Shown: positions 1-54,216 of the stretch, one piece after another
Layout of the letters: each line of letters opens with the position of its first letter
How positions within the stretch are numbered: position 1 is the stretch's first letter
From: Dysidea avara
Taxonomy: Eukaryota; Porifera; Demospongiae; Dictyoceratida; Dysideidae
Assembly (NCBI RefSeq): GCF_963678975.1
Contig: NC_089281.1
Location: 24,098,765 to 24,162,764, forward strand
DNA length: 64,000 nucleotides
Reading direction: 5' to 3'
The notes under the pieces: generated by a model
Database searches by the model: none
Told to the model about the DNA's origin: nothing
What the model saw: only the letters and a program-made list of their open reading frames with translations
Made by a program: the position numbers and the translations under genes

Positions 1-2790
1 GGGCGCTTATGCTGCTGAAAGAGTGGGGTGCTTATAATTTCAAGTGCTGCACGTGAAACATAAATTAAGGCTGCTGAGTTCAGTGAGTTGTCCCTTCAAC
101 TTTTGCCAACGCCTGGACTGCAATTGACGAAGAGATTTCTTATTTACTAGACGGACTGATACTCGATGGCTTGTTCCTCTGAACACCCGGATGGCGAGAT
201 CAGCAAGTGATTGGATAGTACTCGAATGGAAATTGTATTACTTCATCCTGTTAATCGAGACTAAGCTCCAGACAACTGAAAGGGCATGTTCATTTGAACA
301 ACTTCCAGCCCTGGTGAATAGAACACGGACCATCGTCAACAGGTCGTAGATCTGAGCGCCACTGCTACTACGATCAAAGGTAAGCTATTACCCTTCTAAC
401 TACTACGGGCCTATGTGTTGGCACAGTACGTACTTTAAGTACTTTAATAAGTTGTACAGGAACTTAATAGCTAACTCACAAGTTACACTTTAACTAGCTG
501 TGTAGCTAACTAGCTGTGCTACAACAAAAAAACTAAACAAACTAGTATTTTAAAAACTGTTAATTAATGTGCCAAAGTAGGGACTTTCCTAACGAGCTAT
601 GCTGTAATACCATCATCTCTTGTTTCACTACTTTTTATTGCGTAGATCCCTACATTACTTTTAAATTAACAATTTTTTAAAAATACTATGTAGTGTAACT
701 TGATATTAAGTTACATATTACCCATTACTTTAGAAAGAGGCAAAATGTATTACAGTTACTTACCTTTGTATTAGCTACACAGCTATTGTAAGTTTATTAA
801 TCAGTAGCAGTACTGATCACAGTACTGCTACTGGAGTCAGTACCAATGGTGCTCGCCTCAATTACACCACATAGACAATAAGGCACCCACAAACGTATTT
901 TAATGCATGCTCCTGCCCAGACTTCCGGAATACTCCGTGTTTGAGAAACTGCTGTTGTAGCACATATAGTATAGCTAAGTGCTGTTACCTATTTCCTTGG
1001 CAGGGCAGGCTGGTGTTTTATGCTGCTACAGTTCACAAGAAGCTTTGATTCCAGGGTAAGTTTCACTACACTCGCACATGTTGTTATATGGCTTCTCATA
1101 CAAAGTACAGTGTCGTCAGAGCACTAAATTAAATCACGTGAGTGCTAGGAAGCTGGAATACAGTTTGTCCCATTTGTATACTGGTTTTGCAACTCAGGTA
1201 ATTAGAATTGAATGACAATTGATACAGCTAATATGCACTGCTAATATGCACTGTGCTATAATACCATCTTGCGATCTCATTACATAATAATATTACTCGA
1301 CATTGTTACTGACATAATATTACTTTTGTCGTTACAGTAGCGAGTCAGAAGTTAGAGAAAGTAACTTAAGTTATATTACTGTGTATTAGAAAGTAATGCG
1401 TTATATTACTTCAACACCAAAAATGTAATAATTATTACAAAACATGTTACTTCAGTAACACGTTACCCCCAACTCTGATGATCCATGTACACTACTACAT
1501 TCTGTAGACTGTGTGACTGGTACATATACCCACACTACAATACACCAGATACTACACTACTAGTACGGAGAATGCAATTGTAAAGCACATATAGAAAAGC
1601 AATCTTTCAACAGCATAGAGCTCAAGAAGTTAATAGAAAAGGCAACGAACAAAGACAGCTGCAAAGCCTGGAACTAGTGGTAGGTTGAGCCAGTTAGCAT
1701 CATAAAAGCTACTGCTCGATGAGGTTTACATGACTCCAGAGCAATACAATTTGAACTGGTGAGTTCAATGGATTTCTTCCCTCAGAATTAATTATTTATT
1801 GAACCAGGAATACACAAGTACTGCAAGATGGCAATTATGTGCTCCTGATCACGAACACAGCTCCTTCAGCCTCATCCAGTGACTCAAGTGTACTGCGTAA
1901 AAACAGCCAAACAAACAATTGTTAAGATTTCCACTAACACCAACTGCATAGATGTGGACTAAGTTCTAATGATAACAAGCGCACCAGTAAAACTCAGCAT
2001 CAATATTGTCAGTTCTAGTGGCAGCGGTTCTCAGATTGTTCTGTGCTGATTACCACTGTGGGGAAAGCCACCATATTTGTTGCCATTATTCATAGCCGAT
2101 CTGATAGAGCTCTACTTCCCAATCACTAGACAACACTTCCATACATGCACTTTTTAGCATGACCACCGACCAAACAGGAACAAGATGACAATGGTACGGG
2201 TAACCTGTTAATTGTACCAACAGTCACGTGTAATTCAAAAGCCTTTGTTTCTTCTCTGAGTATCAGTGCACACATCCTGGATAAGAGGGATACTGGTTAA
2301 ACTGAAACTAGATGCTGAAAAGATCATTGAGGAAAGTGTAACAAGAAACTAAACACATGGCCACCTGAATTTAAAATTCCAATCATGTGTTGCACATGTT
2401 TTTGCTCTACCACTTCAGACCATGTGAGTATCTCAGGAAAACCCTCATCATTAAGCCTATTACAGAGTATATTGGAATTATAGCAGTGTAGGCAGTAGAA
2501 TGAGCAAAGAAACTAATTTGTACTGTGAGAGCTAACCTAAAAATATACTGGTGTTTACATCAGCAGCCAAAACTATCCCGATATTCACTAACACAAACAA
2601 GCAGGATGGCAATCCAAGAAGATTGCTATCTTCTATGTTCAAATGGCAACTGTACTGATGAAATGGAGCAATAAAGAAGATTTAGGCAATGATCAGGGAA
2701 GAACAGCCTTGAAAACAAGTATGTCAATGAATAAGTAATGGAGTTATCATAATTGCTCCTTATTTAGGATCATAATTTATTATTTCATAC
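1..2790 (+). other. Possible non-coding spliced transcript or decayed gene
   Basis: No open frame of useful length is present, but exon-like segments end in good splice donors. One segment ends at about 380 before GTAAGC, a short one sits at about 1004-1052 between an AG and GGTAAG, and another ends at about 1759 before GTGAGT. From about 1600 to 2760 the base composition is coding-like, yet every frame is broken by stops. This fits a multi-exon long non-coding RNA or an old pseudogene on the plus strand. It could also be an unrecognised repeat. No protein family was recognised. Confidence 0.25.
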
Positions 2791-3535
2791 ATAGTTTTTT
2801 CAATGCATTTCATTAGAACAGTACATTCACTGCAGGCTATTAGTTGTAATAGACATGGTACATATCAGGTGTATCACATTTGTACATGAATGTAATGGCT
2901 GTATCATAAACCAGATTGATTTACCTGATACAAGAGGGGTATGGGGTATATGTACACTTTTGCCCTCAGGACTGTCGCACTGGTAAATCATTTGGGCCTA
3001 CGACACAACTAATTTATGTAATTACAATAAAAATGTAACACTTTCCCTCCTTCATCCAAAGGACTCCTCGCAATTCAGATGTTGTAATTTAATTTACACA
3101 GAAACTGTAGCTTGGTTGTGTGTGTACAAATTAACACTTACTAATCACATTATACCATCTAATTACTAAACACATAACAATTAAGCTATAACTTAACCAC
3201 ACATTCTGTTGTGGTTCACAGAGTTCACACAATTTATTCCAAGAATTCTTTGTACAATATGTCAAACAACTTATCAGCCAATCTTTTAAACTAGAATCTG
3301 GCAAGTCCCTTGCTTGTTGGCACCAGCATCACAATAAATACACTGCTATTGCTGAGCTGTACTGTGCAGCAAAAAGGCTGGTATGATTATAGCTATATGC
3401 ATATGGTGTTTCTGTTGCCATGGCTACATGGCAGAATATCATTACGGTTTTCAATAGACAACTCTTTCTCATTTTGTTCCAGTTCAATGTACCTCATTCA
3501 TCCCTTAAAGTCTTATAAAACACATACACCATATC
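2791..3535. other. No recognisable gene
   Basis: AT-rich sequence with no splice-framed exon, RNA gene or clear repeat that I can see. An open frame beginning at 3310 runs into the inverted repeat that follows and does not resemble a protein. Confidence 0.5.
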
Positions 3536-39588: not shown

Positions 39589-39748
39589 TGTTAACAGATT
39601 ACTTGACGAATGTCTTTTCAAACTGCTGGCTTAACTATACACTCCACAACAAACAGCAACTTTCATAACGCGACCTTGTACTGATGCCCGGCTTTATTAC
39701 ATGAACTAACTAAACGCGCATCCTCTGATTTACACGCAAGGAGAAAAA
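39589..39748. promoter_or_regulatory. 160-bp divergent promoter, abLIM-like / cupin gene
   Basis: The start codons of the LIM-headpiece gene (minus) and the intronless cupin gene (plus) are 160 bp apart, so both must be transcribed from this interval. It contains two CGCG motifs (about 39667 and 39713) in otherwise CpG-poor surroundings, and no obvious TATA box. Confidence 0.65.
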
Positions 39749-40951
39749 ATGGCAGAAAACGCCCAACTTATTCGGGATGTTTTGGCAAAACAGAAAGGAG
39801 TGTTGTTTGCAAGGCCGGCTATTGTGTGCAGGCAAATGTACGCTGGTAGAGACATTATAGCAAAGAACAGCAAATTTGAACCTGGGTACATGGACAACAG
39901 GGGCTACCTACCAGTGGAATGGTGGATCATGTCTAAAACACACGCCAAAAATCCCATAGAGCAGGAAAATGAAGGAATAACGCATCTTTTTGTTGGTGAC
40001 GAAGAGATTCTTTTTTCATCAGCTCTGACATATGCTGGTGAAGAACTGTTGGGAGGTTACATTGACACTTGGCCACTCACAAAACTCCTAGATATTGGAG
40101 GTGTCCCTGTGGTCCCACGATACACTGAAGATACGGGTATTCCCCCAACTGCTGAAGTACCACCCATTCCCTGTCATGTACATGCTGGGGAGGTAGTCAA
40201 TGGCCACTGTGTACCCCCAGGAAAGTCGGAGGCATATTTCTTTCCTCCTACAAATATACCACCTTATAATTTGGATCTGACTGGGACCATAACTCGGTTA
40301 GGATTAAAACCCGGTGTGTCTAAGGTGCAGTTGGTGAACAGCTTAAATGAGTTTGGAAAAAATGATGACTTGTACAAGTTGTTGAATGTGTACGAGGTGT
40401 CACCATGGGAGAGTTGGTTCATCAAAGAGAAGGCAATCCATGCCCCTGGTCCATGGCCGACATTTGAAATCCAGCGACCACAAGATGATTATAACCTGTT
40501 TGCTTGGAAACTAGGAGCACCAATCGAGTCTAGTCAACTAGATGTAATCAAGGCAGATAATCAGATGAAGACTCTTCCAGATGAAATGACTGTGGTTGAA
40601 GAAACAGTTGACTGGGAGTTGAACAGCAAGTGGGATAAGTCAGCTTGGTTCAAGAAATGTGATATAATTGAACAAGGAGATTGGGGATGTTCTCGGCAGC
40701 TCTTTTACCATATGTTCTATGGGGAAGGATATGTTGTAGAACCTGGGAAGAGCTTCAAACGAGGTCAGGATGTGAGACCATTTGCAGGTATTGTCTGGAG
40801 TGGAGTTGGATACCTTAATGGACTGGAAATCAATTTTGCTAACAAACATAAGAGAGAATTCCTTATAACACCCAACACTGAAATGACCTTTGAGAACACT
40901 GACCCTTCTCAACAACTTATTGTATTTGTGATATTTCCAATGAAATTATAA
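39749..40951 (+). CDS. Intronless double-cupin protein, phosphomannose isomerase-like
   Basis: A single 400-residue open frame, with ATG in a strong AAAAATGGC context and no introns, sits among intron-rich neighbours. A metal-binding HVHAGE motif (H143, H145) followed by SEAYFFPP (E161) is the HxH...E signature of a cupin. The C-terminal half (about 310-400: YHMFYGEGYVVEPGKSF, then FLITPNTEMTFENTD, LIVFVIFP) looks like a second beta-barrel. The layout recalls bacterial class I mannose-6-phosphate isomerase-like sugar enzymes, but I cannot assign a reaction. Absence of introns points to lateral transfer from a bacterium or to a retrocopy. It shares a 160-bp divergent promoter region with the LIM gene and converges on GLRX3, whose stop codon is 15 bp away. 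An ATTAAA at about 40959 is a likely poly(A) signal. Confidence 0.75.
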   Translation: MAENAQLIRDVLAKQKGVLFARPAIVCRQMYAGRDIIAKNSKFEPGYMDNRGYLPVEWWIMSKTHAKNPIEQENEGITHLFVGDEEILFSSALTYAGEELLGGYIDTWPLTKLLDIGGVPVVPRYTEDTGIPPTAEVPPIPCHVHAGEVVNGHCVPPGKSEAYFFPPTNIPPYNLDLTGTITRLGLKPGVSKVQLVNSLNEFGKNDDLYKLLNVYEVSPWESWFIKEKAIHAPGPWPTFEIQRPQDDYNLFAWKLGAPIESSQLDVIKADNQMKTLPDEMTVVEETVDWELNSKWDKSAWFKKCDIIEQGDWGCSRQLFYHMFYGEGYVVEPGKSFKRGQDVRPFAGIVWSGVGYLNGLEINFANKHKREFLITPNTEMTFENTDPSQQLIVFVIFPMKL

Positions 40952-45571: not shown

Positions 45572-47808
45572 TCACTCTTTTATTCCTTTAGCTGCAAGTT
45601 CTTCAGTCACTCTGTTCAAGTAGGTTGGATCTGGATAACCATTACTACATAAAAAATAAACCCATTAAGGTACGTAACATGATCAACAAAATGATAACTA
45701 TTTTTACAGGTACTTACCATGTAAGATAGGGAAGGCAGTTTTTAACAACAATTTTACAACAGAAGAAAGATAAGGGTTTTGACACTGAAAGTTAGTTGTA
45801 TTAGTTACACCAAACTTAAAAAACATATGTGTGCAGCCCCCTTTAGATCTGCCACTGAATTTATAGACACAGTTATAGCTAGCTATATCAGATGGCACAA
45901 GAACAATGAAAACACTGTGACTCTTCAGTATAGCTATATAGCTAGTATAATGTCATATAGGTAACTTTATACAAAGGTACTTCAGTAGCAGATGTAGCAC
46001 TCCTAGATGAGATTCAGGTTTTCAATGCCACTATAGCTGCAGCACAGTGGGTTACTGATGTAAATGTGGTGGGTAATTTTTTCAGTTCACAGTAATGGAA
46101 AATCCTAAAATTCAAAACTTTGCATAATGTAATTCCATAATAGTAGAGTTTCTTTTCACTTTACTGAATAAATCTGTGATATAGTTACAAAACATAGAAA
46201 TTTTTAAAATTCAGGTAGGGATCATAGAAGAAAAAGTAACAAAACAAAGAGGTCGCCAACATCTGCAGATATACTAGTGGAAACTTAAGAAGTGTTCAAA
46301 TGTCCACTAGTATATCTGCAGGTGTAGGCGATCTCCTTGTTTTCCTATTTTTATTTCTATGACCATAGACTAATCACATTCCTTGTGCTTTTTGTTTATT
46401 TTTTTTGTATGACTGGTGAAGCTGCACACACTACATCAAAAGAAACAACAGTGCCAAACATAATTGTTTATTTTGCATCTGAACACACATTCCACCTATC
46501 AATTACTGAAAAGTGAAGTGGCCATTATACGCTATATTTTTTGAGCTCATTACACAGTGTTATAGCTAGTACAAGAAGCATCTCTACAATCAATCCAGCC
46601 ACTACAAAATATATGGACAATTCCTATTATAAAAGCATATGGTAGAGTTAACTGCAGTGAAACCTATTGTGAATTGACACCTTGTGCTGCCAGTGAAAAG
46701 AAACAGAACACAAAGGAGGACAAAGGTAAGTCCTTGATGTGTGCATTGTATGTATTCCAAAAGACACCTGTCGGGCTGAAGCAACGTCTAATGGTGAAAA
46801 CATCAATTCCATAGTCTTAGCCGTTAATCAGTTACACTGGCCTGTCAGTCAGTCAGTCAGTCAGTCAGTCAGTCAGTCAGTCAGTCAGTCAGTCAGTCAG
46901 TCAGTCAGTCAGTCAGTCAGTCAGTCAGTCAGTCAGTCAGTCAGTCAGTCAGTCAGTCAGTCAGTCAGTCAGTCAGTCAGTCAGTCAGTCAGTCAGTCAG
47001 TCAGTCAGTCAGTCAGTCAGTCAGTCAGTCAGTCAGTCAGTCAGTCAGTCAGTCAGTCAGTCAGTCAGTCAGTCAGTCAGTCAGTCAGTCAGTCAGTCAG
47101 TCAGTCAGTCAGTCAGTCAGTCAGCAGAAACTTCCACTGCACAACTTAAAAATTGTGTAGCAGCAAATATTTTGTTGTGCTGCTTGACTACATGTCTACA
47201 TCTAACCAAAACTGCCAAGGCTGGTTTCTGGTTTATATATATTTTTATGAGAAAGTGCAAAACTCCATGACCCCTACTATTCTACTGTATGATGAATACT
47301 TTTAGAGTATACTTGACCATTCAAAATCTTGGTTGCATTTTAAGTGGAATTTTTATGATTCGTGTGATTGTAATAATTACAGCTGGTGTAGACCATCAAG
47401 AGGAAACAATGGGCATAGAAAAGACAGTCCTTTCCAAGGTCTTTATATTAATGTTAGTAGCATGACAAGATAGCTGAAGTATGAAAACTCACCACTCAAC
47501 TACCTAGCTCAAATGTGGGATGAAGACAAAACAAGAATGGACAGCTACTCTATCAAAGTGATGAGACATAACAATCAAATTCCACGCAGGAGTGCTATGT
47601 GCTATCAGTGAATCTTATACCATTATTTGTGACAGTATATTATAATCATATGCGACACACTGAAAGAAAATTTATTTATATTGCTGCAATCACAATCGCA
47701 CACACACTGGATATATAGGTACATCTTTGTTTTGTTTAAATTAACACATTACAAATTGAATCAAAACACACTAATTGAACAACAATCTGTAAGCTACCCA
47801 TTTCACAT

Positions 47809-47888
<80 letters not shown>

Positions 47889-50800
47889 GCACGCACGCAC
47901 ACAGGTACGCATGCACACACCTTCTGTTGTAAGACAATGGCATGGTCCTGGATCCAAAGAACTGGACCATACCAGGCACAAATATAGGTTAAATAACAAA
48001 CACTATTTCTAGTGCCAAGTAAAAGTCATTGCAGTAATAAATTGTGCTGTTATGTTTAGCTATACATAGTTAAACATGCATGTACACAAAGATCATCATC
48101 TCTTACTACCTGTCCAACAATAGTTTATGTTCACCTGGCTAAGGGATACTGAATAACAAAATAAAAGCTTTGAATTTAGACCACGTGCAACAACAGCTAA
48201 AGGAGTAGACCACATCTTTATTAATGATCACCATGGAATGTTAACAAGAACAGCTACACGTATGTGGGTTATATATATACAAGTACACAAAAAAATTTGG
48301 AATTTTCAACTAGAGGAGGGACCATAGCACATCAACAAAAAGTACTGAAACAAGTTGGAGTAGTCCATGATATTAAATCACCGTAAAACAATAAGTATTA
48401 TATCTCTACTGTGCTCAAGATACCATAATGGAAATGCACAGTAGGGATATAGAACACTTCTTATTGTTTTCTGTGATTTAATATCATGCACTACTCCAGC
48501 TTGTTTCAGTACTTTTTATTGATGTGCTATGGTCCCTACTCCAGTTGAAAATTCCAAATTTTTTTGTGTACTTGTTTGTTAACTTTTTTTGTAAATAATT
48601 TTATTAGCTAAGACAGATGAACCCACGCATACCGCATCTGAAATGCACCGTGCACCCCAGCTATATCAATTATCGTCTGAAAAGTGAAGTATCCATTACG
48701 CTTCGTTGTCAGCTATGCTCAGCCCGTTACACAGCATTTCGAATCAAGAACTGTTCAAAAAGCACCTCTACAATCCAAAAGAAAGAAACAGTACCACATG
48801 CCACAATTATATTAATTATCGTCTGAAAAGTTAAGTATCCATTACGTTTCGCTGTCAGCTATGTTCAACCCATTACACAGTAGTACGAATCAAGAACTGT
48901 TTGAAAAGCACCTCTGCAATCAAAATAGCCACTATGAAAAATACATTACGAAGGGAAGCCATCACGTGCTACCACCAAATCGACACCATTTGCTGTCAAC
49001 AAAGATGAATGGGACACAAAGAAGGACACTGGTAAGTCCATGAAGAATACATTGTACGTACTGCGATACGCCAAAAGGTACCTGTCAGGCCAAAGTGACA
49101 TTGAACAGTGAAAAAATCAAGCCCGCAGCCTTAGTTGTTATCAAGTTACGCTTGTCTGAAGGCATCAGTCAGTTACTTACTTACTCAGTCAGTAGAAAAT
49201 TCCGTCAGATAATTTTTTAAAAATTCCGTAGCAACTTGTTGAAAGCATTTCGGGTCGATCAGAAAGCTTGCTTGGGCTTAGTTTTACCTAATCAATACTG
49301 CCTCATCATCATCAGGGAAAATTGAGGCTGGTTTATGGGTGATATTATTTTGTGGGCCACGCCTACTCCTTTGTGGTCCCTACTATACAGTTACTATCGT
49401 ACTGTATGATATATCACATAAGAAGTTAAATTACAAAAAATACAGTTATAGTGTATATGGAACCCTCTTGTTAAAAATTATTTGTTAAAGCTTCAGGGTC
49501 AAACTCTTTTTGGTTGCTAGTGAAAGTGAAAGAGTTACCAAAACTACGTATAAGTAGAGACAAAAGATAGAAAATTTTGGGGCTCCATTTTTGTCCATAA
49601 TTCATGCTAACTTTAGCCAAAAAACAAAGTAGCTAATTTTCACTTTTAAAATACCCAAGAAATGTTTCGACTTCCTACATGAGCAGCTAGCTAGCTGCAA
49701 CCATCCTGCCAAAATTATTACTTGAAATGTTAAAGAAACCACCTACCACCTGTATAACTTATCACATTGTACTCTCTTGTATTCTTTACTATATCTCTTT
49801 ATTAATAAGGCCATCAGATATCAAAAGAGAAATTACTTTGTAACTTAACCATAAAACTATCATACAGTTATCTACTATTGAACTGCATGGATTAAAAATG
49901 CTTTGCCAAATTGTTGTGATGCATGTGAAATAAAATTATCCAACAATGATAATAACCTTTGTGGTCCTCCTGTCATGTTTGTCTTGTGATGGATGTCATT
50001 CCAGATCACTACGCTAGTACCAGTTGTATGGGAGGTCCCAATGGTGAATATTAACCTAGCATCAAAAGCCTTCCTGAGTAGTCTAGCAACTTTCCTTCCT
50101 TCAATAGAGTCTGGTAGATAAGCAGTACATGATGTGCCATAAAAACGTTGTCCAGGATTAGGATGACCTGGGCCTTGTGTTCCACCAGGAATGTGGTAGG
50201 TAATAGTGATGGTACCATACTTCTCATAACCTGGTAAGCTCGAATATTCAGTGAAAGATATCATGATACCACCTATTGGTTGATTTCCAGTTAATTTCCT
50301 CAATGGTAAGGCACAGGCAGGACAGTATGGCTTGTGTTTTAGAGCCTCATCCAGACATGACTTACAAAATACTTGTTTGCAGTGTTTACAGCATGACACT
50401 GCTGTGGGTGGTTTATTGGTTGCTTCCTCAGAGCAGATTGTACAACTTAGACAATGAGATTGAACATTATGCAGCATGTTTATACATGCACCCTTAACTC
50501 ACTGTTCTTTTCTATATTTATGGCTCGTGGCAAAGAAGTTGTACATAAAGTGGTGTGTACTTTAGGTCCATCAGATGATCTCTTCTCTTGTCTGTTAGTT
50601 CCCTGTGAGGGTTCATCTTTGTGCTGCCTTAAGGGATCATCACTAGTTAATTCCAAGTTAGGATAAAGTAGGCTTTTTGTAACTGGGTTAGCAGCAGGGT
50701 TTATTATGGACACTAAAGGAGAATTGATATTACTTGAATGGGATTTGTTAGCCAAGACAAAGTCATGCTTTGCATTGCTACTGGCGTCCTTAACTTCCTT

Positions 50801-53800
50801 GTCATTAATTATATTATTGCTTGTACCTCTCTTGCAAGATTCAATGATAACATCACTGCCATTTTCAGCCTCTGTATCTTTAGACCCTCTCCTATTCTTT
50901 GTGGCAGTGCTAATTGGTAAAATGGACACATCTGGTGGAATACTATTAGATGGACTTGTCATACTATGAGTCTGGAGTTTGAGAGGTCTCATTATCCCTA
51001 AGGTGGAAGTGGTAAAATTTGGGACAACAACTGGATGAACAGGTACTGATCCCAAATGATGTTTCTCTCTATGGAACACACTGAGGAATACCTGATAAGT
51101 AGGATCATCAATGATGACAATGCGCACATCTGTCAGAAGTACAGGACTGTGACATTTGTAACTACAAAGTGTTGAGAGCATAACATTAGCCACAAGTTCC
51201 TTTGACACAGCATATATTCCTGAACTGATTGGTGGAAATGAAATAGATTTGCATTCAAATCGTTCTGCTATGACCATTGCATTATTACAAGCACTTTTCA
51301 ATAGGGGACCACAGCTCTGTTTGTGCTGGTATGCCATAGGACCAACTGCGTGGATAACCATTTTGCATTTCAACTTTCCACCAGCAACTGTTGTTGCGAC
51401 TGCATCACCAGTAGCTACACTTCCACGTCGACTGATCAACTGGTTAGATGCTTTCTGAACTTCACCATCACTGGCTCTATCAATAGCAGCAGCCACACCC
51501 CCAGCATGTTGCAGACGATCATTTGCAGCATTCACTATGGCATCAACATCCTCATCTACAATATTACTGAGCTTTATGGTGACTCTCCTGGAGATCTTGG
51601 GCAAGTCAATAAAAACTGATTTTGTTGTAAGGCTTTGTACTAAGGCAGAGCTTTGAGCTGAGTTAGAGCATCGAAATGAAACATTAAGTTGCTTTCTTAC
51701 ATGCTGCATCTGTCGAGCATCAGTAGATAAGCATTTGATTTCTCCTTTCTTTGCATCATACTTGAAATAAGTGTGGTTGAAGGTTTTGTTGTACTCATCA
51801 ACTATTGCACTTGCCTGTTGTACATCACTAACTGATACTGAATGTTCCTTTAGTTTACCACCCATCATCAGCTCACGGTAGGCAGTAAACAGTTCCTCTT
51901 TGATCTTCTCCTCTGTGACATCATCACAGTCAATGTTGATGGTCATTGTCTGTTGATCATAAGACACTGCTGAATGTTGGTAGGCTCCTGTCTTCTCCAT
52001 TAAAGCAAGGATATCAGGATTGAGGTTAGATTCTTTAGCAAAAACAGTGTGTACTTTCTTTGGACTAGGCGAAATATTAGCAGCAGCCAAATATTTCTAA
52101 CAAAGGAATCAAAACAAATTATACTAAAATATGAGTCATACAGTACACATACAGTTATGTGGACAACTGGGCAAATACAGTACAGTTTTATGCAGAACAG
52201 TTATGTATAGGAATGTTACAACTCAGACAGCACGATTGATCACGTGAATGACATTGTAAATCACTAAAACTAAAACTAAAGCCACTGACTATAGATTACA
52301 TGGACACATACTGATTGCTGACCAATGAAAACTGAAGTGTTTTGGGCATGCGAGGTAAATGTTCCAAGCAAGCAGACCAGGAAGTACAATATAACACTTA
52401 AAGCTTGCACACGTCTATGCTTACGTGTACAGCACTCATGTGATGTCTTAAGGCAAATACAGCACTCCTTGTGTTATATTAGCCTCTTGACATGCATATG
52501 CCTCCTTGTGCTGTATTTTTTGTACACACACGTAGTAGTGCTTTAACTATAACCTAAGACAGTTGCCTAGTTTGTCTCAATGGTATGTAGCTACATCATT
52601 GGCTACTGTTGATGAGTATTCAGCTGTTAAGACTACAATACAAGACATTATAGTGCATTGTGTGGACTGGTATGACCCTGTCATCAGTAGCTATAACCAG
52701 TACTGTCTGCCTGAATGCAATAAAAGTGTAAATTATTATGGCAGTTATAGTGTAGTAAGTCATGACTAGTGAATACTAAGTACGTGACATCAGACAAGTG
52801 AACATGGCCTACGTGAGCTATACTTGCAAATCCAGCAACAATGACAACCTCTCTATATAACAGACCACGTTTTATGGTCTTACTTACTTTCTTTGGTGTA
52901 GTATCATCCTTAGCATTTTGCATTACTGTATCATTTTGTTGTTCGCTACATGGCACTTTTTGTTCTGATATTTCCTCAATGTCAGCCTTTTGTTTTAAGA
53001 TATTATCTAGTTGTTGTTTCTTTTGTTCTAATTCTTTTTGAAGTCGATAAATTTGTTGATCTCTTTGTTGCAATTCTTTACAATTACGCTGCAATTTTAG
53101 ATGATTTTCAGACAGCTCCTGGTTTTTCAAAAGTATTTCTTCATCTTGCTGTTTCAGCTTGCGATTATTTAGGTGTAATAGTTGGTCCTTCTGAAATAAT
53201 ATTTCATTTAGCTTTTGGAGTTCTTTATCTGACTGCAATTTTTGTTCCTTGATTACTTGATCTTTTACCTGAATCACATTTCTACACTCAGTCAAGTTTT
53301 GCTCATGGCGTACAACAGTGTTGAAAAGGTCAATAATGCTATCACTCTCATGTGGCAAGTGGCTATATTCAGTACCTCTCAAGCTCCTAATCACTTCTCC
53401 AATAGTTGGCCTATCAACTGGTTTTTTCTGCAGGCATCTCTCAACTAGACGTCTCAGTGCTGGTAAACTAGACATCTTAACAAGGAGGTGTTCTCTTCTC
53501 TGTACTTCTGACAGAATGACATCATCATCAGTTATTTTATCCTTTGGTGTTGGCCACTTCATGCTGGTAACATGCATACATACGCATCCAAATGAGAAGA
53601 TGTCGATTGGAGCACCATACACTGGGTTAACTGATAACGCCTCTGGAGGCATAAACACCATGTTACCAGGAGTTTGGGTGTGTCTATTAAAACCTGGTGA
53701 AATTATCTTAGCCATTCCGAGGTCACTTATTTTAGCTACTAGATGTTTAGTAAGAAGAATATTACTGGAGTAAAGATCCCTGTGGATGATGTTCTGACTG

Positions 53801-54216
53801 TGGAGGAACTGCAGACCCTGACACACATCTGTATATATGGAAAATTTGAAGTGTAAAGGAATATCTGTTTTCTCGTATTTCTCAATCAGGTCGGTTAGGC
53901 TGATGTGCATCAACTCCATCACTAGCCATGGCAACTTCGCTTTCTTTCCTCTTTCACTAGGGTAGTAAATTCCCAGGAACTGCACTACGTTAGGATGAAG
54001 AATTTTGCTACAATTTTCACACTCTGTAAGAAAGACTGACTTCCATTTCGAGTCCTCAGTATTAACCAGTATGGGATGCATTTCTTTCGCGGCACACACC
54101 GTCTCGTGCACGATCACTTCGTAGACACTTGCATACGAGCCGACTCCTATTGGCTCTTCTTTTGTCTTTGTCACCACAGACAGTTCAAAACTACTTTGTC
54201 CCTTCAATGTCGCCAT
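45572..54216 (-). CDS. Kinase - coiled coil - macro domain - RING - Deltex C-terminal fusion
   Basis: Four exons, 52888-54216, 50499-52096, 49957-50445 and 45572-45644, join in frame to 1,162 residues. The kinase (about 10-280) has GVGSYASV (24-31), AAK (K44), HRDLYSSN (145-152), DLG (165-167) and PPE (190-192), so it looks active and TKL-like. A coiled coil rich in Gln/Leu/Lys covers about 305-415. A putative KH/RRM-like stretch (about 465-585) precedes the macro domain (603-785: [28 protein letters not shown]), which should bind ADP-ribose. After a disordered linker comes a RING-like finger (977-1020, CTIC to CPAC, C-x2-C spacing) and a Deltex C-terminal domain (about 1027-1162: [31 protein letters not shown]). 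The ATG at 54216 (AGTATGGCG) is the first in frame. The second donor is GTTAAG; a stronger GTGAGT four bases upstream would break the frame. GLRX3 starts 275 bp downstream. A role in stress or immune signalling is inferred. Confidence 0.85.
46216..46367. mobile_element. Fold-back MITE in the 4.3-kb intron
   Basis: The left half (TAGGGATCATAGAAG, then GGTCGCCAACATCTGCAGAT) is mirrored in the right half (ATCTGCAGGTGTAGGCGATC, then TTCTATGACCATA). The arms are about 65 bp and include TCTGCAGATATACTAGTGGA. There is no open frame. Confidence 0.7.
46440..47170 (+). repeat. Repeat copy 1 carrying the expanded TCAG array
   Basis: Flanks of the tetranucleotide array match 48600-49240. Shared landmarks are AAAAGTGAAGT with a CATTAYACGCT block, CATTACACAG, AAGCATCTCTACAATC, GACACCTTGTGCTG / GACACCATTTGCTG, GGTAAGTCC and AGACACCTGTCGGGC / AGGTACCTGTCAGGC. 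It lies within the last intron of the kinase-macro-Deltex gene. Confidence 0.65.
46844..47124. repeat. (TCAG)n array, about 70 copies
   Basis: About 281 bp of uninterrupted TCAG/GTCA tetramers. All three forward frames stay open as a consequence of the repeat, giving an artefactual Ser/Gln/Val frame. The related repeat at 48600-49240 has only a few degenerate units at the same position, so the array expanded here. Confidence 0.97.
47811..47900. repeat. (CA)n microsatellite with CACG end
   Basis: About 36 CA units followed by several ACGC units. It lies inside the last intron of the kinase-macro-Deltex gene. Confidence 0.95.
48280..48574. mobile_element. 295-bp fold-back MITE in the 4.3-kb intron
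   Basis: The ends are CAAGTACACAAAAAAATTTGG and its complement CCAAATTTTTTTGTGTACTTG. Nearly the whole element is a hairpin: GACCATAGCACATCAA pairs with TTGATGTGCTATGGTC, and GATATTAAATCAC with GTGATTTAATATC. It has no coding capacity. Confidence 0.8.
48600..49240 (+). repeat. Repeat copy 2 with internal duplication
   Basis: Homologous to 46440-47170. A segment of about 160 bp is duplicated in tandem: 48650-48790 and 48810-48930 share AATTATCGTCTGAAAAGT, AGTATCCATTACG and CGAATCAAGAACTG. The TCAG site here reads only CAGTCAGTTACTTACTTACT, the short, pre-expansion-like state. Confidence 0.65.
52130..52560 (+). repeat. Dispersed repeat in kinase-macro-Deltex intron 1
   Basis: Matches 44275-44500 in GLRX3 intron 3 (CACGATTGATCACGTG, AAATCACTAAAACTA, CCAAGCAAGCAGACCAG, CTCTTGACATG, GTGCTTTAACTA). 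It fills more than half of the 791-bp intron (52097-52887) that separates the kinase exon from the macro exon. Confidence 0.65.

Follow-up and report, generated by a model that had tools for sequence, protein, structure and literature searches.

The minus strand of the window, the whole 64,000-nucleotide stretch of Dysidea avara DNA analysed here (a locus on contig C10), on balance appears to encode a DTX3L-type Deltex E3 ligase with a PARP9/PARP14-type macro domain of its own. The original 5' end of this gene would be gone, and a first exon, encoding a kinase and a coiled coil, would have come in by exon shuffling from a very large kinase family. All of the parts are members of known families, and it is the combination with a kinase that looks new. 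The preliminary description of this DNA, made from the letters alone, had known of no described protein with this domain order, and none was found in the open-access literature that was searched (a scope outside which most subscription journals lie), whether as a kinase-Deltex or as a kinase-macro-Deltex protein.

Exon 1 (52888..54216, minus strand, as are all parts of the gene) starts with an ATG at 54216 and has 443 codons, which encode a kinase (Pfam Pkinase 9.4e-40) and a glutamine-, lysine- and leucine-rich tail that resembles a coiled coil. It has a match of 81% identity at C10:23885282 and ends at a phase 0 donor, AAA/GTAAGT (slashes mark exon boundaries). Intron 1 (52097..52887, 791 bp) runs from GTAAGT to TTTGTTAG, and its acceptor, TTTGTTAG/AAA, is in phase 0 like the donor. 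Exon 2 (50499..52096) begins with 16 residues that lack homology, followed by a conserved region (52048-51617), the macro domain (Pfam Macro 4.7e-28) and a poorly conserved linker, and it can end in two ways: in phase 2 at the donor GA/GTTAAG, or at 50503 in phase 1 at the donor A/GTGAGT. Intron 2 (50446..50502) has, by comparison with the paralogues, an altered acceptor, TCTAA/GT. Exon 3 (49957..50445) encodes a RING finger and positions 1-112 of the 133 of the DTC domain (Pfam DTC 8.8e-43), and its donor is in phase 2. Intron 3 (45645..49956) spans 4.3 kb and contains interspersed and simple repeats; the interspersed ones lie at 46189-46885 and 48271-49411, with copies that are about 65-89% identical in many of the fetched loci. 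Exon 4 (45572..45644) supplies the final 23 DTC residues after a split codon, and then the stop. The RING-DTC match to DTX3L extends to chain residue 158 of 159, so the end of the DTC is supplied by exon 4 and the domain is complete.

These matches bear out the kinase, the macro domain with its motifs and the complete DTC of the preliminary description. Its intron phases (0, 2, 2) are arithmetically right and give a four-exon model of 1162 residues with no internal stop, but the family intron between the macro and RING exons is in phase 1 (see below). The finger that it called RING-like has the C and H ligands by eye, but its zf-RING_2 score of 26.6 bits is slightly below the Pfam cut-off of 27.3; the RING of the paralogue L016 passes several RING models.

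Active protein kinases carry a beta-3 lysine, the HRD aspartate and asparagine, a DxG motif and an APE-like motif. All of these are present in the window kinase, where the last one reads PPE, and by these conserved catalytic motifs the kinase is active-looking. Among solved kinases, TAO2 is the nearest in sequence (2.9e-25). For the proposed coiled coil in the tail, the rough heptad score is attained by 77 of 2000 shuffles, so that the coiled coil goes only weakly beyond shuffled sequence and rests mostly on composition. At another kinase locus, L031 (reverse strand, 156-3251), a kinase and coiled coil are followed by what look by eye like pieces of a second, different kinase.

The macro domain has its best PDB matches in PARP14 (9.3e-27) and PARP9 (9.6e-23) and keeps the NAAN and GG (glycine) loops. 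One macro loop reads SSGIYA in the window; the five aligned paralogues have SSGIFG (three), SSGVFG (L009) and SCGLFG (L016). The RING-DTC part matches DTX3L (4.4e-47) better than DTX2 (3.3e-42) and DTX1 (1.3e-37), and exon 3 alone still matches DTX3L with an E of 4.6e-36. Exon 3 of the paralogue L010 slightly prefers DTX2 (1.2e-35) to DTX3L (2.6e-34). The link to PARP9 and DTX3L that had been drawn from the vertebrate proteins is upheld by the best matches of both domains. The Deltex half would in our reading be, by its best PDB matches, a ligase of the DTX3L type that carries a macro domain like those of PARP9 and PARP14.

The DTC catalytic residues given in the available text of PMC11460948 are H582 and E608 in DTX2 and H707 and E733 in DTX3L. 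The two DTX3L positions given there align with a His and a Glu in the window when the numbering is counted along the 159-residue chain. Exon 4 was sought in 11 loci (the window and L009-L018) and found in 10 of them, being missing in L010 only. The position of DTX3L Y719, which lies in the DTC pocket before GYPD, is a Tyr in seven of these ten, a His in two (L016 and L017) and an Asn in the window. A KH fold ahead of the macro domain was suspected from the likeness to DTX3L and PARP14; neither the window's conserved region nor three paralogue pieces gave a Pfam match above the cut-off, whether RRM or KH, and a single-sequence AlphaFold model of the window piece has a mean pLDDT of 35.

A fusion of the kinase and macro exons appears likely, and the join itself looks fairly well supported by phase 0 consensus sites, by the lost 5' end of the Deltex part and by the same order at a second locus. 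The macro exons of L009, L010, L011 and L012 have a 5' extension, about 125 residues long in L010, which is absent from the window. The DNA homology of exon 2 to its paralogues begins at 52044, just inside the exon, and no DNA homology to the 5' extension of the paralogous macro exons was found in intron 1. The region preceding the macro domain is likewise missing at L016, where kinase, macro and RING-DTC follow each other in this order on one strand, with phase 0 sites offered by the kinase and macro exons.

Profile searches of the 550.8 Mb genome, in which the window was located on C10, gave 16 DTC matches in 11 loci (all on C10 except one on C13) and 1427 first-look kinase candidates, 95 of which were scored. 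The window aside, two of the 95 scored kinase matches have a DTC no more than 10 kb downstream on their own strand, with 0.0095 expected by chance in a comparison where the loci are related by duplication and so are not independent. The excess is weaker with all 1427 first-look candidates (0.14 expected, P 0.009).

The abundance of genes of this kinase kind, as seen in these 1427 candidates, also fits two neighbouring same-strand genes, of which one would be a kinase gene that stops within its own exon and the other a Deltex gene truncated at the 5' side, whose first exon has escaped notice. This arrangement is unlikely. The kinase ORF does stay open for 67 codons beyond the proposed donor, up to a stop at 52684. 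Among 12 kinase loci (the window, L016, L022 and L031-L039), six have no recognised partner in the approximately 3 kb read downstream, and three are followed by RING-DTC. A small 5' exon of a separate Deltex gene may also exist, which would count against the fusion. However, a consensus donor lies right where the coiled-coil region ends, and the Deltex part no longer has its own 5' coding sequence, with an in-frame stop immediately upstream of exon 2 and no in-frame ATG ahead of the conserved region. The identical order at L016, with its phase 0 sites, also speaks for one fused gene.

The join between the macro and RING exons is weak. In the three paralogues where its splice sites were read (L009, L010 and L011), this intron is in phase 1, and the acceptor is TTTAG/GT in L009 and L010 and GTTAG/AT in L011. 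In the window the acceptor AG has become AA, and the sole AG near the 3' end of intron 2 is that of CTAAG, one base further. Joining the shifted AG to the family-type donor A/GTGAGT, as in L009, shifts the frame, and translation would end at codon 1010, ahead of the DTC. The donor GA/GTTAAG gives an in-frame join and sits four bases after the better GTGAGT. GTTAAG is a poor donor by the general splice consensus, which is the standard used here for donor strength, in place of a scored model. Because the RING-DTC join depends on this shifted, weaker donor, the window copy may yield mainly a kinase-macro protein, or may be losing function. The single protein from four exons of the preliminary description is fairly well supported at the kinase-macro join, with its phase 0 sites and the order of L016, but not secure at the macro-RING join with its AA acceptor. 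One molecule with all the activities is uncertain for the window copy because the macro-to-RING acceptor is altered.

It is possible, though we lean against it, that the fusion is real and that the window copy makes the shorter kinase-macro protein by using the GTGAGT donor with the shifted acceptor. The predicted product would end at codon 1010, the acceptor differs from the AG of the paralogues, the DTC pocket has Asn where seven of ten loci have Tyr, and the RING-DTC branch of the window is the longest (0.25) within its own five-row group. However, an in-frame join is available, and both the RING-DTC exon and the distant exon 4 are open, with RING-DTC dN/dS values of 0.36, 0.25, 0.21 and 0.25 against the close relatives L009, L010, L011 and L015. 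Values for the other parts are 0.22 for the kinase (window against L022) and 0.34, 0.38 and 0.33 for the macro exon (against L009, L010 and L011). This dN/dS pattern favours a gene that was functional for most of its history.

The window copy is quite unlikely to be a pseudogene of recent origin: despite synonymous distances of 0.29-0.94 to close paralogues, the in-frame model keeps 1162 open codons, and these weigh against the altered splice acceptor, the altered pocket residue and the repeats within intron 3. The acceptor itself is decided by one base, and the change could be an assembly error or one allele, with the gene fully intact in the animal. Aligned to L009 without gaps, the site looks like a substitution of AG to AA and not like a length error, and this explanation, too, is very doubtful.

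That the fused gene preferred here is ancestral, as had been suggested as a possibility, is not supported. The kinase seems to be a derived feature, added more than once, because eight of the 11 DTC loci show none in the upstream stretches searched and the three kinases that do lie near a DTC do not form one clade. At three loci (the window, L016, and L022 with L015) a kinase lies at most 10 kb upstream of the DTC; at the other eight the stretches without a kinase match span some 15 kb (L009-L013) or some 7 kb (L014, L017 and L018). In the tree of 12 kinases, the window and L022 are grouped (100/99), and L016 falls with kinases of contig C11 with moderate support (84-87/88-91). The clade of window, L022 and L016 kinases, defined by gene neighbourhood but tested after the tree was known, is rejected (p-AU 0.0008). 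In the tree built from nine RING-DTC exons, L016 falls into one group with L012, L013 and L014 (100/100), three loci where no kinase was found, and a clade of window, L015 and L016 is rejected. A single ancestral kinase-Deltex fusion for L016 and the window is thus rejected by both trees, where a later kinase swap would look alike. It follows that Deltex genes acquired the kinase on two or more occasions, or that a kinase swap took place.

The L022/L015 locus is less clear. Its kinase and RING-DTC have similar synonymous distances to those of the window (0.80 and 0.84). The L015 RING-DTC groups with that of the kinase-free L011, and a clade of window and L015 is rejected (p-AU 0.008). Since no macro exon was found at this locus and no phase-matched join was settled, the kinase-Deltex pairing there may be mere adjacency.

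L033 (127-3795) has a similar kinase and coiled-coil exon with an HSP70 ORF about 80 bp further on (4.3e-206) and phase 1 compatible sites, and at L036 an HSP70 match lies 4.9 kb downstream on the same strand. A wider but tentative reading is that the kinase and coiled-coil exon is a shuffled signalling cassette, which may have been plugged repeatedly onto ADP-ribose-reading Deltex ligases, HSP70 and a second kinase. The resulting proteins, some of which would read ADP-ribose, phosphorylate and ubiquitinate, could form a combinatorial innate-immune arm.

The genome has 63 PARP-domain matches, of which 14 are on C10; seven of these are near DTC loci, and the remaining 56 of the 63 are elsewhere. 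The seven lie at 23.65-23.76, 26.18-26.23, 26.87 and 26.95 Mb of C10, with macro matches nearby, and the DTC loci near them are at 23.80-24.15, 26.13-26.25, 26.91 and 26.96 Mb. No PARP match lies so near the DTC at 26.55 Mb of C10. The RING-DTC copies of L013 and L014 are nearly identical and lie 367 kb apart on C10, perhaps after a recent duplication.

Upstream of the gene, about 4 kb from the kinase exon, the window contains an NLR, an ORF on the minus strand (62119-58297) that matches Death (in two stretches), NACHT and LRR. The neighbouring NLR was considered as proof of an immune locus, and as such it is weak, because NACHT is so common in this genome, with 703 first-look candidates of which 105 were scored. 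Immediately downstream of exon 4, at about 45330-44500 on the minus strand, is a region that by eye resembles the start of what we take to be a glutaredoxin-3 type thioredoxin gene. A 413-codon ORF on the plus strand (39710-40948) has no Pfam match at an E of 0.01.

The protein is probably an oligomerising innate-immune or stress effector. The coiled coil would oligomerise it, while the macro domain and the DTC pocket would bind ADP-ribosylated targets, perhaps made by PARP14-like enzymes encoded nearby ("PARP14-like" being a label from domain matches and not from gene models). The RING would recruit E2-ubiquitin, and the DTC would help to attach ubiquitin to ADP-ribose or close to it. The kinase would phosphorylate the bound targets or itself, or control the protein. 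In vertebrates, ADP-ribose reading (PARP9) and ubiquitin transfer (DTX3L) reside in two partner proteins, and a reader and ligase in one gene family near PARP genes bears on the origin of that antiviral module. Repeated kinase addition would be a natural experiment, with phosphorylation, ADP-ribosylation and ubiquitination coupled within a single chain. It would also suggest a kinase cassette acting like an immune plug-in.

Wheat kinase fusion proteins and tandem kinase resistance proteins also have a kinase module joined to other domains, as the available parts of the reports on them describe. They are plant proteins for which these texts report a resistance role, and the likeness to the sponge gene is mere analogy. 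PARP9 and PARP14 macrodomains are the best PDB matches of the window macro domain, which shares their NAAN and GG loops, but no PARP domain was found on the window gene, and its loop reads SSGIYA. Human DTX3L is the top PDB match of the window RING-DTC, its catalytic His and Glu positions are kept, and its Tyr before GYPD is common to seven of the ten loci with exon 4. It differs in having this Tyr where the window has Asn and, as described in the available text of PMC13224862, in having neither a kinase nor a macro domain. The vertebrate PARP9-DTX3L-PARP14 cluster, as presented in the same available text, is resembled by the Deltex-bearing parts of C10 with their PARP and macro matches. In contrast to the vertebrate locus, the macro reader and the RING-DTC ligase are here in one gene, with a kinase in some of the copies.
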